This document shows, piece after piece, positions 1 to 26,236 of a stretch of 26,236 bases of DNA (its first letter is position 1; each line of letters opens with the position of its first letter). Source of the stretch: a virus. The stretch lies in the IMG/VR virus record IMGVR_UViG_3300001450_005500, positions 66,224 to 92,459 of that record. One strand, written 5' to 3'. The position numbers were made by a program, and so were the translations under genes. The notes below the pieces were generated by a model. It was not told where the DNA came from. It did no database searches and saw only the letters and a list, made by a program, of their open reading frames with translations.

Positions 1-3000
1 CCAGAGAAACTGAAGATTTCTATTCTACTGTAAGTTCTGTGCTAGCTTCTAGAAATGATTTAGAGTTTTTCTCTCCTGTGTACCAAATGAGAACCAAAGA
101 AACATTCTTAGGAGGTAAGTTTGGTGTAGGTCAAGAAGCTAGGCATCTAGTAGATCATGCTATTTCACAGTGGGCACTAGAAAATGTAGAATCTTCTTTA
201 TTTTTAAAAGGTAAAGATATAGGTCTAGGTAGACTAACTCCACAAACTATGGTTACAGATCTTTCTAGTATAACTGATACAGCAGGAGGCCTTATATCTA
301 ACACTATGTCTGCACGACTAGATGCATATGTAGATATAGCTAAAGATCCTTATATATTTTATTTAAATAATAATAAAACAACTGCTAATACCGTTGCTTT
401 ACTAGATAGAGCAGGTGTAGATCCTAGATGGACTAACAGATTTATGGGTCTTAGAGTTTTATCAGATTATGTAAAAACTCAGGATTTCATTAATTCTCCA
501 GGTAGCCCTGGGGTAAATATTAATGGCAAGCGTGTATTTAAAGCAGAACAAGTTTTAAGAAATCGTTTACTAACTAAGTACTCCGCATTAACAGGCACTC
601 CTATAGCAGATATTAAAATAGTTAATTTACTTAAAGAAGATAGCCGTATAAGAATGTATTCTAGACGTAATAATATACCTTTAGAAGATGCTGTAGCACT
701 TAATGCTAAAAGTCCTATAAGAATTAGTGACATTATAACTACAGAAAGATTAGAATCTCTACTGGACTCTTCACAGACTCCAACGGCAAATAGAACTTAT
801 GATGAGTTATTATTATTAAACCTGTTCCTAAATCTTAAAGGTACCGCTAGTGAATTGAATAAAGCAGTTACAGCTTCTAAAGCAGATACTCAAGGTGCTG
901 CAGGAGGTGTTGTAGGGGCTATTATAGGCCAAAATAATATAGAAGCTGTATTGGAAACAGATGTAATAGGAGGGTTTTCTGAAAGGTTTGATGGAACTAT
1001 GCTAGGTAAGTATCAAGAAAATGGTCCTAATATGATGCTGTCTTTATTTGGCAATACATTCCTAGCTGGAAACGCTAATTTTAAAGGTATTATGAAAGAC
1101 CTTTCTGAGTTAGTAGGTAATGAAAAAGTATTACAAAATGAAGACTTATATAGAAAAGTTTATGCAGGCTTTATTTCATACTTATTTTCTAAAACGCCTT
1201 TTTACAAAGGTATAGACGTAACTGATATTTTATACTCTAAAAACAATGTTGTAAATAGATTATGGAGATATAAGAATGAAGATAATAGCCCTATAAAAGA
1301 TAATCCTTTTGTACAATATTTATCACCAGAGTTCTCTAATACTAAAAGGGGACATGATTATATAATAACATCTGCGAGTGAGAAAAAAGAAGGTGTAGAT
1401 AAAGACTCATTAACTGAAGGGTGGAATGCTTTGCTCTCTAGTGAGGATGCTGCTGTAAGAAAATTTGCTGAGGACTTATATAAATTCTCTATATTATCAT
1501 CAGGATTTAGTAATACTTTGTTTTCTTTCCACGAATTAGCGCCTTTACAGTATGAACTAGACAATGGTGTATATGACCAATTTGGTCAACAAGTACTAGA
1601 CATTAAAACTCATGGTAATATAATATTTGATGAGACAGAACTAAAAAAATTCCTTAAAACTCAAACTAGTAATACGGAATTAGTTCCAGAATATTTTGCT
1701 AAGTCTCCAAAAGTCATTAAGATTCCAGGGTCTAAAATAAGTTATGTTTATAATATAGTATTACCTTCTAACAGTGCACGTAAATTTATAACCAGAGAAC
1801 CAAAAGAAGGATTTAAACATTTTGTACCATTCATAGAAGTAAATGTTAAAGGTAAACAAGTTGTTTTAATGGAGCACATAGGTTATAATGAAAAAGGAGA
1901 TGCTATTTATCAATTAACTGAAAGAACAGGTACTTATAAGAAAGGTAGAAAAATCTTTGAAAATGCAGAAAACAGAACTGAGCTTAAAGAAAACCAGATA
2001 GTAAATGTATTTAATGATAAAGTTATAAATAATTGGTTAGGTGTTCTAAGGCAAAATAATAAACTAGTAGCTTTAGCATCAATAGCAGCAAAACTTAACA
2101 AAGGTGGAAAATTCATTCCTCTAGATGCTGCACAATTAGACTATGATTCTCAATCAGAATTTAGTAATACTCTAAATAACGAAGAAGATTTTACTAGTAC
2201 TATATCTGAAGAACAAGATTTACATACTATACTTACTCCTAATTATAAATTAGAAGAATCTTTCCCTGTTGTAATTCAAACAAGTAAAGGTCCTAGAATT
2301 GTAGGAATATTTAAAACTATAGCTGAGGCTATAAATGAAGGTATAGAACCAGAAGTAGCAATTAAAGCTGCTCTTAAGTATAACTTGGAGCTGCAGGAGT
2401 ATATAGCAGGAATTTCAGAAGAGTCTGTTTCTTATGATAAAGAAGTAGGTAATTATATTGGATATGCAGCAGCATGGAATAAATTCATAGGTTTAGCAGC
2501 GAGAGGTGAGGGTCAACAGATATTTTTTGAACAGCAAAAAATAAACCAGATGGATTACTTCCTTGATTCTAGACCTTTAACAGTACTTTTACAACAGTTT
2601 GAACGTCAATTACCAGTTAAGTCGGCTTATAGTCCTATAATTAATATGATGCAGGAATTAACTAGAGATACACACACTGAAATTGTTTATACAAGTGCGG
2701 ATGTTATAAAGAAATCTAGAGCTGAGAGTTCAGTAGCATTTTATGATCTAAATGCAAATAGAGTGTTTATGCCTCTTAAAATAAACACAATAAAAGGATA
2801 TTCAAAAACAGAGACAGAAGCAATGGTTTTATTACATGAAACTATTCATAATATGACTGCGCAATCTTTACACAAACCTTGGAATAGTAAAACAACGACA
2901 GAAAAAATGTTCCAAGTTAGGGTACAAAAGTTATTAGATTTATATATTGAAAAAACTAAGCTTAAAGATATGCCTGAACAATTGCAAACTGCTGTAGAAA

Positions 3001-21168: not shown

Positions 21169-22377
21169 TTATAAATTAATAATTTCGCTTATATCATCTA
21201 TCCATTTCACTGTGTAATCACTTTTTACTCTCTTTCTAACCCATTTTAGTTCTTGTGTTCCTTTGATGTATAAGTTCACATAAATTGCTTTCTTGCCATT
21301 TTTTAATCTTAATGTACGACCTGTTCTTTGAATACTGTCTAGGGCTTTTGAACTGCCAGCAACACATATTCCTAAAGAACAATCTGGCACATTAAGACCT
21401 GCATTTAACGCTTTAACGGAACTTAATATTCTAACACCTTTCTCTTCTCCAAACTTTTCAAGAGTATCTTTACGATCGTTCTTATGCATTTTACTATGAA
21501 ATACGGAACAATCAGATCCAATTACTGTTTGAATTTGCTCAGCAAACTCTATGCTTTCGCTAAAGATTAATGTTTTCCTATTAGGAAACTTATCAGTTAA
21601 TTTCTTAACTAATACTAATTTACTAAATGCATTAAAACACATTTGTTTCCTTTTATTCATCATCTTATAATATATAATAGATATCTTCTTCTTAGGATGA
21701 TTACTCGATTTCATAAATTTACTTGCATTTTTAAATGCATTAAAAGGTCCACCGAGTTCATCTGTACAATCTTGAAGAAGCTTATCTACTCTATTATATT
21801 CTAGTGCTTCTTCAGGTGTAAAACTAACACCTAAATTATACACTGTATAAGGGGACACAATCCCCAGTTTTCTCGCCTCATTTAAATTGGTTGTTTTAAT
21901 AATAGGGGCGTGTTCATGTAAATAATTAAAATACTCTTCGTTTTCAGGAGGCGTTGCTGTGAAGCAATACATCCTTTCCCAAAGATTATTTTCATAGAAA
22001 TTTCTATATGATGTAGATAAGGTAGTGTGTACCTCGTCTACAACAACGATATCCCAATGATGTCCTGCAAGTTTATATGCAGATTGTATACACATGAATT
22101 CTACTTGTGGTAATAAATGTTCTAAATTCCAAGTATGGAATTCTTTAACCCATTCATTGTCTCTAAGATTCTCAGTAGGCACAATTACACATGCCGACTT
22201 GTTAGAATCTTTTCCTAAAGTATTTTTAATTGCTAAAATACCAATCCTAGTTTTACCAAGACCAGTAGCAGCAATAGAAGTACCTTTGTAACCATTCGAG
22301 ACCCAAGCATCTAGATGTTCTAATTGAAGTTCATCTTTTTGTTCGTTAAATAAATCTGTTTGAATCATTTTTCCCAT
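21169..22377 (-). CDS. SF2 (DEAD/DEAH-type) DNA helicase
   Basis: A 402-aa superfamily 2 helicase with Walker A ATGLGKT (residues 37-43), motif II DEVH (114-117), motif III TATPP (140-144), and C-terminal motifs around NAGLNVPDCS and QRTGRTLR (motifs V and VI). It resembles the phage UvsW-like/RecG-like helicases that remodel forks and recombination intermediates. The reading frame overlaps the polA stop by 13 nt if ATG 22377 is used, or by the classic 4-nt ATGA if ATG 22368 (M4) is used. The latter is equally plausible. Confidence 0.9.
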   Translation of the reverse strand: MGKMIQTDLFNEQKDELQLEHLDAWVSNGYKGTSIAATGLGKTRIGILAIKNTLGKDSNKSACVIVPTENLRDNEWVKEFHTWNLEHLLPQVEFMCIQSAYKLAGHHWDIVVVDEVHTTLSTSYRNFYENNLWERMYCFTATPPENEEYFNYLHEHAPIIKTTNLNEARKLGIVSPYTVYNLGVSFTPEEALEYNRVDKLLQDCTDELGGPFNAFKNASKFMKSSNHPKKKISIIYYKMMNKRKQMCFNAFSKLVLVKKLTDKFPNRKTLIFSESIEFAEQIQTVIGSDCSVFHSKMHKNDRKDTLEKFGEEKGVRILSSVKALNAGLNVPDCSLGICVAGSSKALDSIQRTGRTLRLKNGKKAIYVNLYIKGTQELKWVRKRVKSDYTVKWIDDISEIINL

Positions 22378-24215
22378 TTTGAATTAATACTAGGTTCAGC
22401 TTTCAATAACTTATTATTTAAAATAAGCTCTGCAGCTCTTTCCATTTCGTAACTTAAAATTTCTGACCATTCTGTGGAGTAATCTGTTGGACACATTGTA
22501 TCAATTTGATCATGTACTGTCATAACTAACTTAACTGGTAAGTTGTCATCTTGTATTCTCTTTCGTAAGAAAGCCAATGCAAGTTTAGTCATGTCAGCAC
22601 CTGTACCTTGAATAGGAGTATTTTTAGATGCACGTTCAATTGAACCTAACACCTTCATGTCTCCTGAACTGAATCCCATACCAGGGAACCAATCTTCAAA
22701 CCATCTGATCCTTCTGAAAGGCGCAAAGGTTTTAATGTGACCGTATCGTTTTCCGTAATTTCCTAGACTATTTAGAAACTTTTTAATTGAGGGGAATACA
22801 CTAAAATATTTATCTATTAGTATCTGTGCTTCTTCTGTACTTATCTGTAAAGTGTTTGCTAATTTAAATGGACCCATGCCATAAGCGAGGCCAAAGTTAA
22901 TGGTTTTTACGTTAGTACGCAACTTTTTCTTACCTTTTTCATCAGCTTCTCTCCATTTGTCTTGAAATACTAGATCTGCGCACTCACTGTGTAAGTCACC
23001 GCCTTCTTCTAGAATTTTTAACCAAACAGGGTCCTTAGATCCTGTCGCTATAATACATAATTCCTGAGAACTATAATCGGCAGATACTAGTACTTGATTT
23101 TCATCAGGTATAAAACAATGTCTAAACTTATTGTCTGCAGGTATCTGCTGCATATTTGGAGAGTTACTAGCAATTCTACCAGTATTTAATACTTGATTAA
23201 ATCTAGTATGAATCTTACCATCTGCTCCAATATTCTTTAAGAATTCTATACCATATGAAGTAGCAAGCTTTGCTTTCTCTTTATACTTTACATAGTTATT
23301 TATTAATCCGTGAGTTCTATAATTTATCAGTTCTTTTCCATTTACATTTTCTAAATCAGGTACTAAAATTTTGAATACTCTTAATACTTGTGTAGGACTA
23401 GACCATTTAACCATAATTTTTCTAATATCTTCTGTTGCTGTAAATAATTGTGTCTGTACATTTGGATTAACAAAACTAGATAACCTTGGATCTGCCATAA
23501 CTAATTGATCTAATGTGTCTTCATACTTAATCATTTCGTCTTTGGAATCCTTCGCTATATTACTCCATTGTTCTGTATCCAATTTAAAGCCATTAAATTC
23601 TATGTCTGCTAAAGCTAAACTTGCAGTGTTTTCTAACTCTGCAACGTCTTCTAATTTATGTTTTATGAGTGTTTGCTCTTGAGCATTCCTTATAAAACAT
23701 AGATACTCTACATCTTTAGCACCATATACTATTTGATCGTCTTTAAAGGGTTCGCCTTCTAAACCAACGAATTGGTTTCTAACGTCTTTGTTTAAGTCTA
23801 CCTGTAGGTAGCGCTTACAAAGCTCCTTTAAAGAATATCGTAAAGTAAATTTACCACAATGAATAATTTGGTCCACTAACATAGTATCCCAACATCCATT
23901 CATAGTAATATTACCCCACCTTTTAATAACTTTATAATCAAATTTGACATTATGTAGAATCTTTATTATAGAGTTTGATTCTAAAATGTCACGTAAAGGT
24001 TCAATACTTACGTGTCTTGTGTCAATAACAAATTGTTCGTTATCGTCTCCTATTTGAAGCATTAGCATTCTCTTTGTTTGGAAGTCTAATCCTTCTGTTT
24101 CAGTATCTACACCTAGATACTTTTTGTCTTTACAGTAGCTAACCGCATCTTCAATAGTTGCTACTTTATAATGTTCCGAAGGAATATTTCTTTCGGGTCC
24201 TATATAATTTATCAT
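22365..24215 (-). CDS. polA: Family A DNA polymerase with 3'-5' exonuclease
   Basis: The replicative polymerase. The exonuclease domain has Exo I DTE (D37, E39), Exo II NVKFD (N89, D93) and Exo III YGAKD (Y164, D168), all intact, so it should proofread. The polymerase domain has motif A SADYSSQE (D380, E385), motif B RTNVKTINFGLAYG (R433, K437, F441, Y445) and motif C VHDQID (D569). Phe at 441, the counterpart of E. coli F762, is the high-fidelity type. Motif C has HDQ where HDE is nearly universal. No 5'-3' exonuclease domain is present (616 aa). The start overlaps the previous gene's stop as ATGA (24212-24215). Confidence 0.95.
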   Translation of the reverse strand: MINYIGPERNIPSEHYKVATIEDAVSYCKDKKYLGVDTETEGLDFQTKRMLMLQIGDDNEQFVIDTRHVSIEPLRDILESNSIIKILHNVKFDYKVIKRWGNITMNGCWDTMLVDQIIHCGKFTLRYSLKELCKRYLQVDLNKDVRNQFVGLEGEPFKDDQIVYGAKDVEYLCFIRNAQEQTLIKHKLEDVAELENTASLALADIEFNGFKLDTEQWSNIAKDSKDEMIKYEDTLDQLVMADPRLSSFVNPNVQTQLFTATEDIRKIMVKWSSPTQVLRVFKILVPDLENVNGKELINYRTHGLINNYVKYKEKAKLATSYGIEFLKNIGADGKIHTRFNQVLNTGRIASNSPNMQQIPADNKFRHCFIPDENQVLVSADYSSQELCIIATGSKDPVWLKILEEGGDLHSECADLVFQDKWREADEKGKKKLRTNVKTINFGLAYGMGPFKLANTLQISTEEAQILIDKYFSVFPSIKKFLNSLGNYGKRYGHIKTFAPFRRIRWFEDWFPGMGFSSGDMKVLGSIERASKNTPIQGTGADMTKLALAFLRKRIQDDNLPVKLVMTVHDQIDTMCPTDYSTEWSEILSYEMERAAELILNNKLLKAEPSINSKWEK

Positions 24216-24733: not shown

Positions 24734-24775
24734 GTTATATAGTTTAGTTAATAAATAATTTAATAAGAAAAAGTT

Positions 24776-24881
24776 GAGAGATGAGTCGAACCAGACCGAT
24801 AACGAGGAAAACCCTCTTTAGCATGTTATCTATGTGTAGTAACCCTTGGCATAGGATTTAACTACTGTGTGCTCATCTCTC
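24776..24881 (-). ncRNA. Branched structured element B
   Basis: A perfect 10-bp closing stem (24776-24785 with 24872-24881). On the minus strand it encloses two hairpins: GTAGTtAA pairing with TTACTAC, and GATAAC pairing with GTTATC with an inner GAGG-GTTTT-CCTC. It is followed by AACTTTTTCTT, a fair T tract. The result is a three-way-junction shape about 106 nt long. It is not a tRNA: the T-loop-like GGTTCGA lacks a pairing T stem. It may be a small RNA ending in a terminator, or a folded DNA site. Confidence 0.5.
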
Positions 24882-24893
24882 TTCTTTTAGTTT

Positions 24894-24977: not shown

Positions 24978-25421
24978 TTAATACGTAAGTACTGCCTCTT
25001 TTATAAGAGTCATTGCATCACGTAATTGTTCATTTTCTACTTGTAAAGTATCAATTTTAATATGCGCTATACTTAATTTGTCATCTACAGTTAATAATTT
25101 ATCAGCCATAAATGGTTTATCAGTAAAGGTATTACTTATAAGATCAAACATTCTTCTATAAGTCTTGTCTACTTTATATAGATCTTTGTGTGTCCTGCTA
25201 TAATGTATAATAGAACTATGATCTCTATTTAAAAGATCACCTACTTCTACTGTACTTAATAATAATTTTTCTCTAGCAATAACAGCAAACATAGTTTTAG
25301 ATTCTACATACGCTCTCTTTCTAGTTCTAGATATCATCTCTTGCTTTGAAATGCCGAATACATTAGTAACTATTCTAAATAATTTATTAATGCTTTGCGT
25401 CTCGTCATAAATTTTGTTCAT
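24978..25421 (-). CDS. DnaA domain IV-like DNA-binding protein
   Basis: A 147-aa protein made only of a DnaA-C-terminal-type helix-turn-helix plus a C-terminal coiled coil. The DnaA signature is clear: FRIVTNVFGISKQEMISRTR (residues about 15-34), then KRAYVESKTMFAVIAREKL, then DLLNRDHSSIIHY, matching the RDHSTV box that reads DnaA boxes. There is no AAA+ ATPase domain, so it cannot melt DNA alone. It may mark the phage origin or compete for host DnaA sites. I use ATG 25421; an in-frame TTG at 25430 is possible but less likely. The folded region 24776-24968 lies directly downstream. Confidence 0.85.
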   Translation of the reverse strand: MNKIYDETQSINKLFRIVTNVFGISKQEMISRTRKRAYVESKTMFAVIAREKLLLSTVEVGDLLNRDHSSIIHYSRTHKDLYKVDKTYRRMFDLISNTFTDKPFMADKLLTVDDKLSIAHIKIDTLQVENEQLRDAMTLIKEAVLTY

Positions 25422-25436
25422 AATAATCAATTTTAA

Positions 25437-26000
25437 TTAAGATATTTGAAATCCACCCGATTCTTTTGCAAACTTTGCAAACTGTAACGCATTTTCCACA
25501 CTAAAAGGATATGATGCAGCCCATGCCTCACGTTTACCTGTTCCTTCGCAACCATTACATTTTCCTTTTACATGTTCATCATCACGTTTACCTGTGCCGT
25601 TACAATGCATACAATCTTCTTTATCTAGTTTAGCAATAGCTTCTTCATACCCTTGAGCATACTTATCAAGAGCACCACTCTTATTCTCTTTCATTATACG
25701 TGCAGCTATCTTAATACCTTTAGTTTTAGATATAGTATCAAAGTTATTCCAAGTACCTTTAACCATATCTTTTTGAGTTAATATATCATGACATATATTA
25801 CATACATATGTCCATAGTGGTCTCCACCACCATGCATTGTTTCTAAAATATATACCAGGATTAACTTTTTCATGTTCATCCCAAGCAATCGTATAAGCTT
25901 CTCTAAGATCTGGAGTAACAGTAGACCAATGATTGTCTTTTAAAATCTTAGGCTCTGGCTGGTTAATTTTAGGTGCCACCCCGTGTAGATCAAATCCCAT
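25437..26000 (-). CDS. Phage protein with DnaJ-type zinc-finger repeats (187 aa)
   Basis: Two CxxCxGTGK repeats, CMHCNGTGKR and CNGCEGTGKR (residues about 131-158), form a DnaJ-like zinc-binding module. The N-terminal part contains the phage-typical GIYFRNNAWWWRPLWTYV (residues 48-65) and CNIC. No J domain is present, so it is not a full co-chaperone. Such proteins recur in phage early regions, but their role is unknown; protein binding through the zinc module is likely. It starts 29 nt after the tmRNA 3' end and is probably in the same minus-strand transcription unit as the DnaA-like gene that follows. Confidence 0.8.
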   Translation of the reverse strand: MGFDLHGVAPKINQPEPKILKDNHWSTVTPDLREAYTIAWDEHEKVNPGIYFRNNAWWWRPLWTYVCNICHDILTQKDMVKGTWNNFDTISKTKGIKIAARIMKENKSGALDKYAQGYEEAIAKLDKEDCMHCNGTGKRDDEHVKGKCNGCEGTGKREAWAASYPFSVENALQFAKFAKESGGFQIS

Positions 26001-26029
26001 AATAATAGTTTTAAATAGTTAATAAAAAG

Positions 26030-26236
26030 TGGAGGTGGTGGGTTTCGAACCCACGTCCATACTGTATCCACATAAATAGATGTACAAGCTTTTAAGTAAT
26101 TGACTATATTTTTCTAGAGTTACACATTACTTACGTGCTCTCTTTACTACGGTATTTCGCTTAGTCAAGCGAAACAGACCTGAAGCTCCTAGAGCTAATT
26201 AGGCCATCTTTGTATTAAGTGACAAATTACCAAAAA
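26030..26236 (-). ncRNA. ssrA: Transfer-messenger RNA (tmRNA), 3' part; runs off the right edge
   Basis: On the minus strand the end reads GGAC, then a perfect T arm (GTGGG TTCGAAA CCCAC), then the acceptor 3' strand CACCTCC and discriminator A at 26030. This is the diagnostic GGAC-T-arm-CUCCA end of tmRNA rather than of a tRNA. CCA is not encoded (CAC then TTTTT), so the host must add it. Upstream is the strong hairpin TTTCGCTT-GACT-AAGCGAAA (26156-26175 region) expected of a pseudoknot after the tag. In the open frame the tag ends ...SLNTKMA with TAA at 26201-26199. About 170 nt follow the tag stop, fewer than E. coli's, suggesting fewer pseudoknots. The 5' half, resume codon and alanine acceptor 5' strand lie beyond the window. 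It would rescue stalled ribosomes during infection. Confidence 0.85.

Follow-up and report, generated by a model that had tools for sequence, protein, structure and literature searches.

The stretch of viral DNA analysed here (26,236 nucleotides, referred to as the window) comprises bases 66224-92459 of a 92,459-base record, and the end of the window is the end of the record. At this end the minus strand carries the 3' half of an ssrA (tmRNA) gene, which heads a series of replication genes on the same strand, encoding a 187-aa protein, a DnaA-domain protein, DNA polymerase A, helicases and others (Table 1). The RF00023 match was cut off on its 5' side and remained below the gathering score of 47, as is to be expected of a gene whose 5' half is absent from the window. 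The initial annotation had read a truncated ssrA gene at this position, with a perfect T arm, a CACCTCC acceptor strand followed by A and no encoded CCA, adjoining a replication operon. All of these elements were recovered: the acceptor strand and T arm were read at 26030-26054 on the minus strand, positions 26027-26029 read CTT and the operon lies directly downstream.

Table 1. Positions of the ssrA gene, its structural elements, the neighbouring genes and the tRNA-like-domain-only RNAs of relatives (window coordinates unless a record or contig is named)
Feature	Position	Strand	Evidence or remark
ssrA (tmRNA), 3' half	window 26027..26236	-	RF00023, E=4.2e-15, 40.7 bits
ssrA, 5' half	G000:C1:192-1	-	acceptor strand, D-loop, P2 5' strand, resume codon, tag
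Acceptor 3' strand CACCTCC and discriminator A	26030..26037 (acceptor 26031-26037, A 26030)	-	sequence
T arm, 5-bp stem GTGGG/CCCAC, 7-nt loop TTCGAAA	26038..26054	-	sequence, RF00023 alignment
Helix P2, 3' strand AAAAGCTTGTACATCTATTTAT	26072..26093	-	consensus fold of four relatives
Hairpin or pseudoknot domain closed by TAAGTAAT/ATTACTTA	26093..26133	-	read from alignments
Conserved hairpin TTGTCACTTAATACAA just 3' of the tag	26210..26225	-	stem invariant in five tmRNAs
First gene downstream of ssrA, 187 aa	25437..26000	-	weak DnaJ-type zinc-finger match
150-aa protein, DnaA C-terminal helix-turn-helix domain	24978..25430	-	PF08299, E=1e-11
Family A DNA polymerase, replication operon	22365..24215	-	PF00476, E=9e-70
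tRNA-like-domain-only RNA, 83 nt	L088:34-116; L094:576-658		
tRNA-like-domain-only RNA, 82 nt	L299:1501-1582		
tRNA-like-domain-only RNA, 77 nt	L071:2359-2435; likewise L075, L300		
tRNA-like-domain-only RNA, 114 nt	L017:7437-7550		L017 and L018 also carry a full tmRNA

The missing half was located at the other end of the record, where the minus strand of the first 192 bases opens with the tmRNA 5' end GGGGGTGACATGGCTTTGAC. It aligned from position 1 of RF00023, weakly when taken alone (9.2 bits), and gave E=2.4e-65 with nhmmer and a profile that contains this same sequence. The record starts with AAAAACAC and ends with ACCAAAAA, which places the break within an A-run of ssrA. The joined gene is 397 nt long assuming a 5-base overlap (AAAAA), the number of bases at the join being uncertain. 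L017 and L018 are relatives in which the two halves, with 2-4 kb of flank on either side, run collinearly in a single contig, indicating that the genome is circular or circularly permuted and that ssrA spans the linearisation point. A linear classification of the record and an overlap of only AAAAA might be expected if two separate sequences had been brought together by an assembly coincidence, but the collinearity of halves and flanks in L017 and L018 and the perfect pairing of the acceptor strands make such a coincidence exceedingly improbable. The identity of the gene as a complete one-piece tmRNA, in a circular crAss-like genome cut inside ssrA, is close to certain. The complementary 5' acceptor strand with its G3-U70 pair and the resume codon (GGC), which the initial annotation had sought past 26236, where the record stops, were thus both present once the circle was closed.

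Relatives were gathered by a DNA polymerase search; a search with the 187-aa neighbour protein found none, and phages searched with the window end and with the ssrA of L017 gave no full-length match. The full-length tmRNAs of the relatives, which occupy the corresponding site upstream of the polymerase, scored 64-75 bits against the RF00023 cut-off of 47. ARAGORN, a program that needs the whole gene, reported no tmRNA in the window and made no call on the joined ssrA, though the genes of L023 and L262 were called. Since ARAGORN also misses the tmRNA of Flavobacterium phage Fpv20, which passes RF00023, the failure seems to reflect a limitation of the software. Two other assignments were rejected. 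For a permuted gene, with the 3' part first, the match to RF04321 (28.8 bits) covered the shared T-arm part only, and a protein gene starts at 26000. A T-loop-like match at 24796 belongs to another structured RNA, described below.

The joined RNA has the following elements of a tmRNA. The 7-bp acceptor stem, formed by GGGGGTG (G000:C1:186-192) and CACCTCC, is perfect and includes G3-U70, the pair of alanine acceptors; with this pair and the discriminator A it was present in four of four relatives, one pair switching between G-C and A-U. The tRNA-like domain consists of the T arm, with one compensatory pair among relatives, and a D-loop without a D stem, as in tmRNA. A long helix, P2, joins the tRNA-like and mRNA-like parts, and its region showed changes on both sides across four relatives. 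The domain that follows at 26093..26133 recurs among the relatives, a single G-U exchange apart. The 5' strand of P2 lies only about 17 nt from the resume codon in the closest group, a distance that would leave no room for a normal PK1. Hairpins are conserved 3' of the tag. Upstream, a terminator-like hairpin with a U-run (GCTTATGACGGGGCTTCGGCCTTGTTATAAGCTTTTTTTT, G000:C1 ~198-237, minus strand) ends about 4 nt before the 5' end of ssrA; none was seen at the corresponding position in L017.

The tag lies beyond the end of the window and hence was unseen in the window letters. It is 34 residues long, GENSYSKVAKFFPRGNGFIASALPLQSVELAVAA, opening at GGC, ending in AVAA and closed by the stop codon TAG. 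Host-like ends (GEN.Y...LA[VL]AA) flank an inserted block of roughly 24 residues. The corresponding tags were GENSYAKVAKFFPIGNSFVASALPLQSVELAVAA in L017 and L018 and GENSYSVVKLTPIG[AV]ESHSSALPLQSVELA[VL]AA in L023, L090 and L272, and the frame lengths in the closest group were 34, 34, 33, 33 and 33 codons, with one in-frame 3-nt difference. In a class-wide sample of 30 Bacteroidia tmRNAs, ARAGORN gave a tag for 29, in each case of 8-10 residues and typically GENNYALAA, the 9-residue form of the probable bacterial hosts. The resume context TTTTTAACTGGCGAAAATAG around GGC was invariant in the closest group and resembles that of other phage groups. A resume codon GCT, which would give a 26-aa tag (AKFFPRG...), was rejected because the invariant TTTAACTGGCGAAAA context, common to host tmRNAs, surrounds GGC. 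The tag had no match in a Pfam search, and no second copy of it was found in the phage genome. Not all Crassvirales tags are long: that of L221 has 11 aa and the permuted gut forms have 13-14 aa.

In the closest group, part of the constraint on the tag acts on the RNA rather than on the peptide, since silent sites do not vary in the block CTCTACCACTACAAAGTGTAGAACTTGC and the last third of the tag (SALPLQSVELA) is invariant or nearly so even at such sites. Between this phage and L023, the fraction of identical synonymous codons was 0.78 in the tag vs 0.51 in the polymerase, which is 59% identical over the aligned residues. In addition, a TTCCC-TAGA-GGGAA hairpin within the insertion shows paired changes among relatives. 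These are the observations to be expected if hairpins had been inserted for folding or stability and the long frame were a by-product of RNA structure, the peptide being irrelevant. However, both the frame and its length are conserved, the ends of the tag are host-like and another family of long tags is conserved at the amino-acid level with silent changes. We therefore regard a by-product as quite improbable.

This second and larger family, found in about 70 viral contigs, has tags mostly of 30-38 residues with the consensus ...VVSLGDNAQIEANMNKVFSLL..EEVAVAA; its sequence differs from that of the insertion in the tag of this phage, and the two have in common the long tag and an AVAA-like end. 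The tmRNA of Fpv20 (NC_031912 84536-84950, a record without tmRNA annotation) has a 35-residue tag, GNTNNSVVSLEDNAQVEANMNMAFSLIREDVAVAA, and the same gene is present in 29 Flavobacterium phage records. The tmRNA of Cellulophaga phage phi14:2 (NC_021806 4031-4502, also unannotated) scored 46.0 bits, just below the cut-off of 47, and has a 38-residue tag, GNDTDNTQLKANMTVVHNILNGSDALIGSSVQKLAMVA (in short form GNDTDNTQLKANM...AMVA). Both tag frames were assigned manually, starting from the resume context; ARAGORN gave no tag for Fpv20 and only the last part of that of phi14:2. Calle_1, of a different family, has a tag of 30 residues, GNNTNAVNAQIEANMEAVNAILNLEVAVGV. Hand-read tags of 22 residues were obtained for other phage tmRNAs in L002, L007, L011 (GKTIAKLALLGLVREESTVAVA) and L009 (GNVYSQMELMGLVSVDSKVAVA). 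The 99.6-kb contig that holds L007 gave no match to the crAss muzzle protein.

In viral contigs, 75 stretches matched a DNA pattern encoding NAQ[IV]EANM. An in-frame GG[C/A] start and a tag of 30-45 residues, mostly 35 or 37, were found at 72 loci (reference copies included), and all except three of these tags end in [V/L/A/I]AA. A T loop and acceptor end followed within 700 nt in 55 of the 75 pattern regions, and 15 of the 21 larger records in the set passed the crAss muzzle cut-off. Computed outside the pattern-fixed codons and from pairs that are not independent, dN/dS at codons 21-27 was 0.18 vs 0.71 in the shifted frame (0.12 when the pattern-fixed codons were included). Codons 7-8 had no amino-acid changes at a pS of 0.26, whereas codons 9-12 and 28-35 were not so constrained (dN/dS 0.86 or more). 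The difference at codons 21-27 supports, rather than proves, that the long tags of the second family are read as peptides under purifying selection.

In several relatives, tRNA-like domains without the mRNA-like part were found by RF00023 and by a model, R1, built here (Table 1). L297 (a copy of L094) and L299, both included in the R1 build, keep the P2 stem and are largely different in sequence. According to PMC11915505 (citing Mao 2009) and PMC4131195, a comparable tRNA-like-domain RNA of phage DS6A inhibits endogenous tmRNA in E. coli. By analogy, the tagless RNAs of the crAss-like relatives could possibly be natural inhibitors of trans-translation, and within this clade a phage may either bring a tmRNA of its own or inhibit that of the host. 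The full ssrA RNA might itself be such a competitor, occupying SmpB, AlaRS, EF-Tu or stalled ribosomes and weakening host quality control, a reading to which the 77-114 nt tagless forms and the effect of the DS6A RNA lend some weight. However, the gene keeps a resume codon, an open frame, a stop codon and mRNA-like helices, all needless for a decoy, and the tag frame is conserved among relatives, and we consider a competitor role for this RNA unlikely.

The phage belongs to the Crassvirales, as indicated by a crAss muzzle protein (PF25731, E=1.8e-44), a TerL up to 37% identical to those of crAss-like phages and a match to a phrog portal (E=1e-187). The 187-aa protein next to ssrA is 41-74% identical in the ssrA-bearing relatives. 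No tRNA, SmpB, ClpP or integrase genes were found in the phage genome. It follows that any function of the RNA should depend on host SmpB, and that ssrA is neither part of a tRNA cluster nor an obvious attachment-site relic. Phages often integrate in ssrA, as is generally known (PMC9004378), and a copy of the gene could have been carried along from such a site. Nevertheless, the gene is complete, its operon position is conserved in several lineages, no integrase was detected in the phage and its tag is far from host tags, all of which leaves a relic with next to no probability.

The reading that we prefer, and hold to be probable, is that of a one-piece tmRNA that uses host SmpB and AlaRS and tags rescued proteins with its own long tag. 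Trans-translation by the phage ssrA is likely. The RNA would be made early, along with the replication operon, and charged by host AlaRS, and would work with host SmpB. Ribosomes stalled on broken or cleaved messages would be freed during infection, with GENSYSKVAKFFPRGNGFIASALPLQSVELAVAA added in place of the host GENNYALAA-type tag. The hydrophobic -AVAA end probably still directs the products to a ClpXP-type protease, and the insertion of about 24 residues would most likely alter the manner or speed with which the tagged proteins are handled, or the protease or adaptor involved. The role suggested in the initial annotation, a takeover of ribosome rescue or the tagging of specific proteins, is plausible, and the insertion in the tag might, as a working hypothesis, retarget the tagged proteins.

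A broader reading is that Crassvirales and other Bacteroidota phages rewrote the tag into a phage-specific peptide of at least 30 residues by an insertion between host-like ends, with selection at the peptide level in one large family, and that sister phages counter trans-translation with a tagless tRNA-like decoy. The rewritten tag would then give its products a fate chosen by the phage, such as another protease, adaptor or location, or a protective role. We put this forward tentatively, at somewhat below even chances.

Several other structured RNAs were noted. One, at 24768-24887 on the minus strand of the window, has a 10-bp closing stem (GAGAGATGAG/CTCATCTCTC) and inner hairpins, with compensatory changes readable in three helices and a shuffle z-score of -3.4. 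It is 88% identical to L090:7790-7910, where it lies directly behind ssrA, and a comparison with Rfam gave no match. A GOLLD RNA (RF02032, 222 bits) is located at L029:7910-8299 in a crAss-like relative, about 1.7 kb upstream of the DNA polymerase and in roughly the slot of ssrA in this phage. Permuted phage tmRNAs with the tag GEQVELAMAA or GEQVKLAMAA were found in L001, L004, L005, L012 and L013, and the VELA.AA of such tags resembles the end of the tag of this phage. A 101-kb crAss-like record (L006 / G033) has a permuted tmRNA and a muzzle gene that reads through 27 TAG codons, a recoded stop. The gut crAss-like genomes cr60_1 (L357) and cr114_1 (L358) have permuted tmRNAs with a Bacteroidota-type resume context; the intervening segment of the cr114_1 gene contains a tRNA-His, with RAGATH RNAs nearby.

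To our knowledge, the purpose of phage tmRNAs is unestablished despite years of notice. The present tags are three to four times the host length, are peptide-conserved in one large family and occur in cultured phages (Cellulophaga phages phi14:2 and Calle; Flavobacterium phages Fpv/FPSV), which makes it testable whether they serve only ribosome rescue or whether the products are re-addressed. They also provide a naturally occurring collection of long tags that are candidates for directing degradation, and the tagless RNAs of the same clade are natural candidate competitors of trans-translation. Several such genes escape standard tools: neither this ssrA nor that of Fpv20 was called by ARAGORN.

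Phage tmRNAs are already known, including in crAss-like phages, and permuted forms are annotated in gut crAss-like phages in GenBank. As the initial annotation had stated, they are uncommon, with tmRNA found in 402 of 18,146 phage genomes (PMC9004378). A non-exhaustive search of the literature gave no report of Bacteroidota phages with tags of at least 30 residues, nor of Crassvirales with tagless forms. The tmRNA annotated in Maribacter phage Panino overlaps with tRNA genes and is apparently a false positive.

The closest known system is the one-piece tmRNA of Bacteroidota (RF00023), of which the TTTAACTGGCGAAAA context with GENNYALAA is the signature and with which the phage RNA shares this resume context, the GEN.Y start, the hydrophobic-Ala-Ala end, G3-U70, the T arm and P2. 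However, the Bacteroidota tag has 8-10 residues vs 34 here, and the resume codon is at about 96 vs 65, the preceding stretch being about 30 nt shorter in the phage. The permuted tmRNAs of gut Suoliviridae (cr114_1, cr60_1, cr10_1) come from the same virus order and have a Bacteroidota-type resume context, but the gene is permuted and the tags have 13-14 residues. The RNA of DS6A resembles those carried by relatives of this phage, while the window gene has a full mRNA-like part. Mycobacteriophage ET08, standing in here for Bxz1, also has a one-piece tmRNA with a longer than usual tag (25 aa, ATDTDATVTDAEIEAFFAEEAAALV), although that gene sits in a tRNA cluster and the tag is unrelated and shorter. 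Finally, the tmRNA of methylophage Melnitz (PMC9004378) likewise belongs to a marine phage, lies in an early operon and has a proposed role in rescue or recycling, but it is a permuted, two-piece RNA of alphaproteobacterial type that is linked to a riboswitch.
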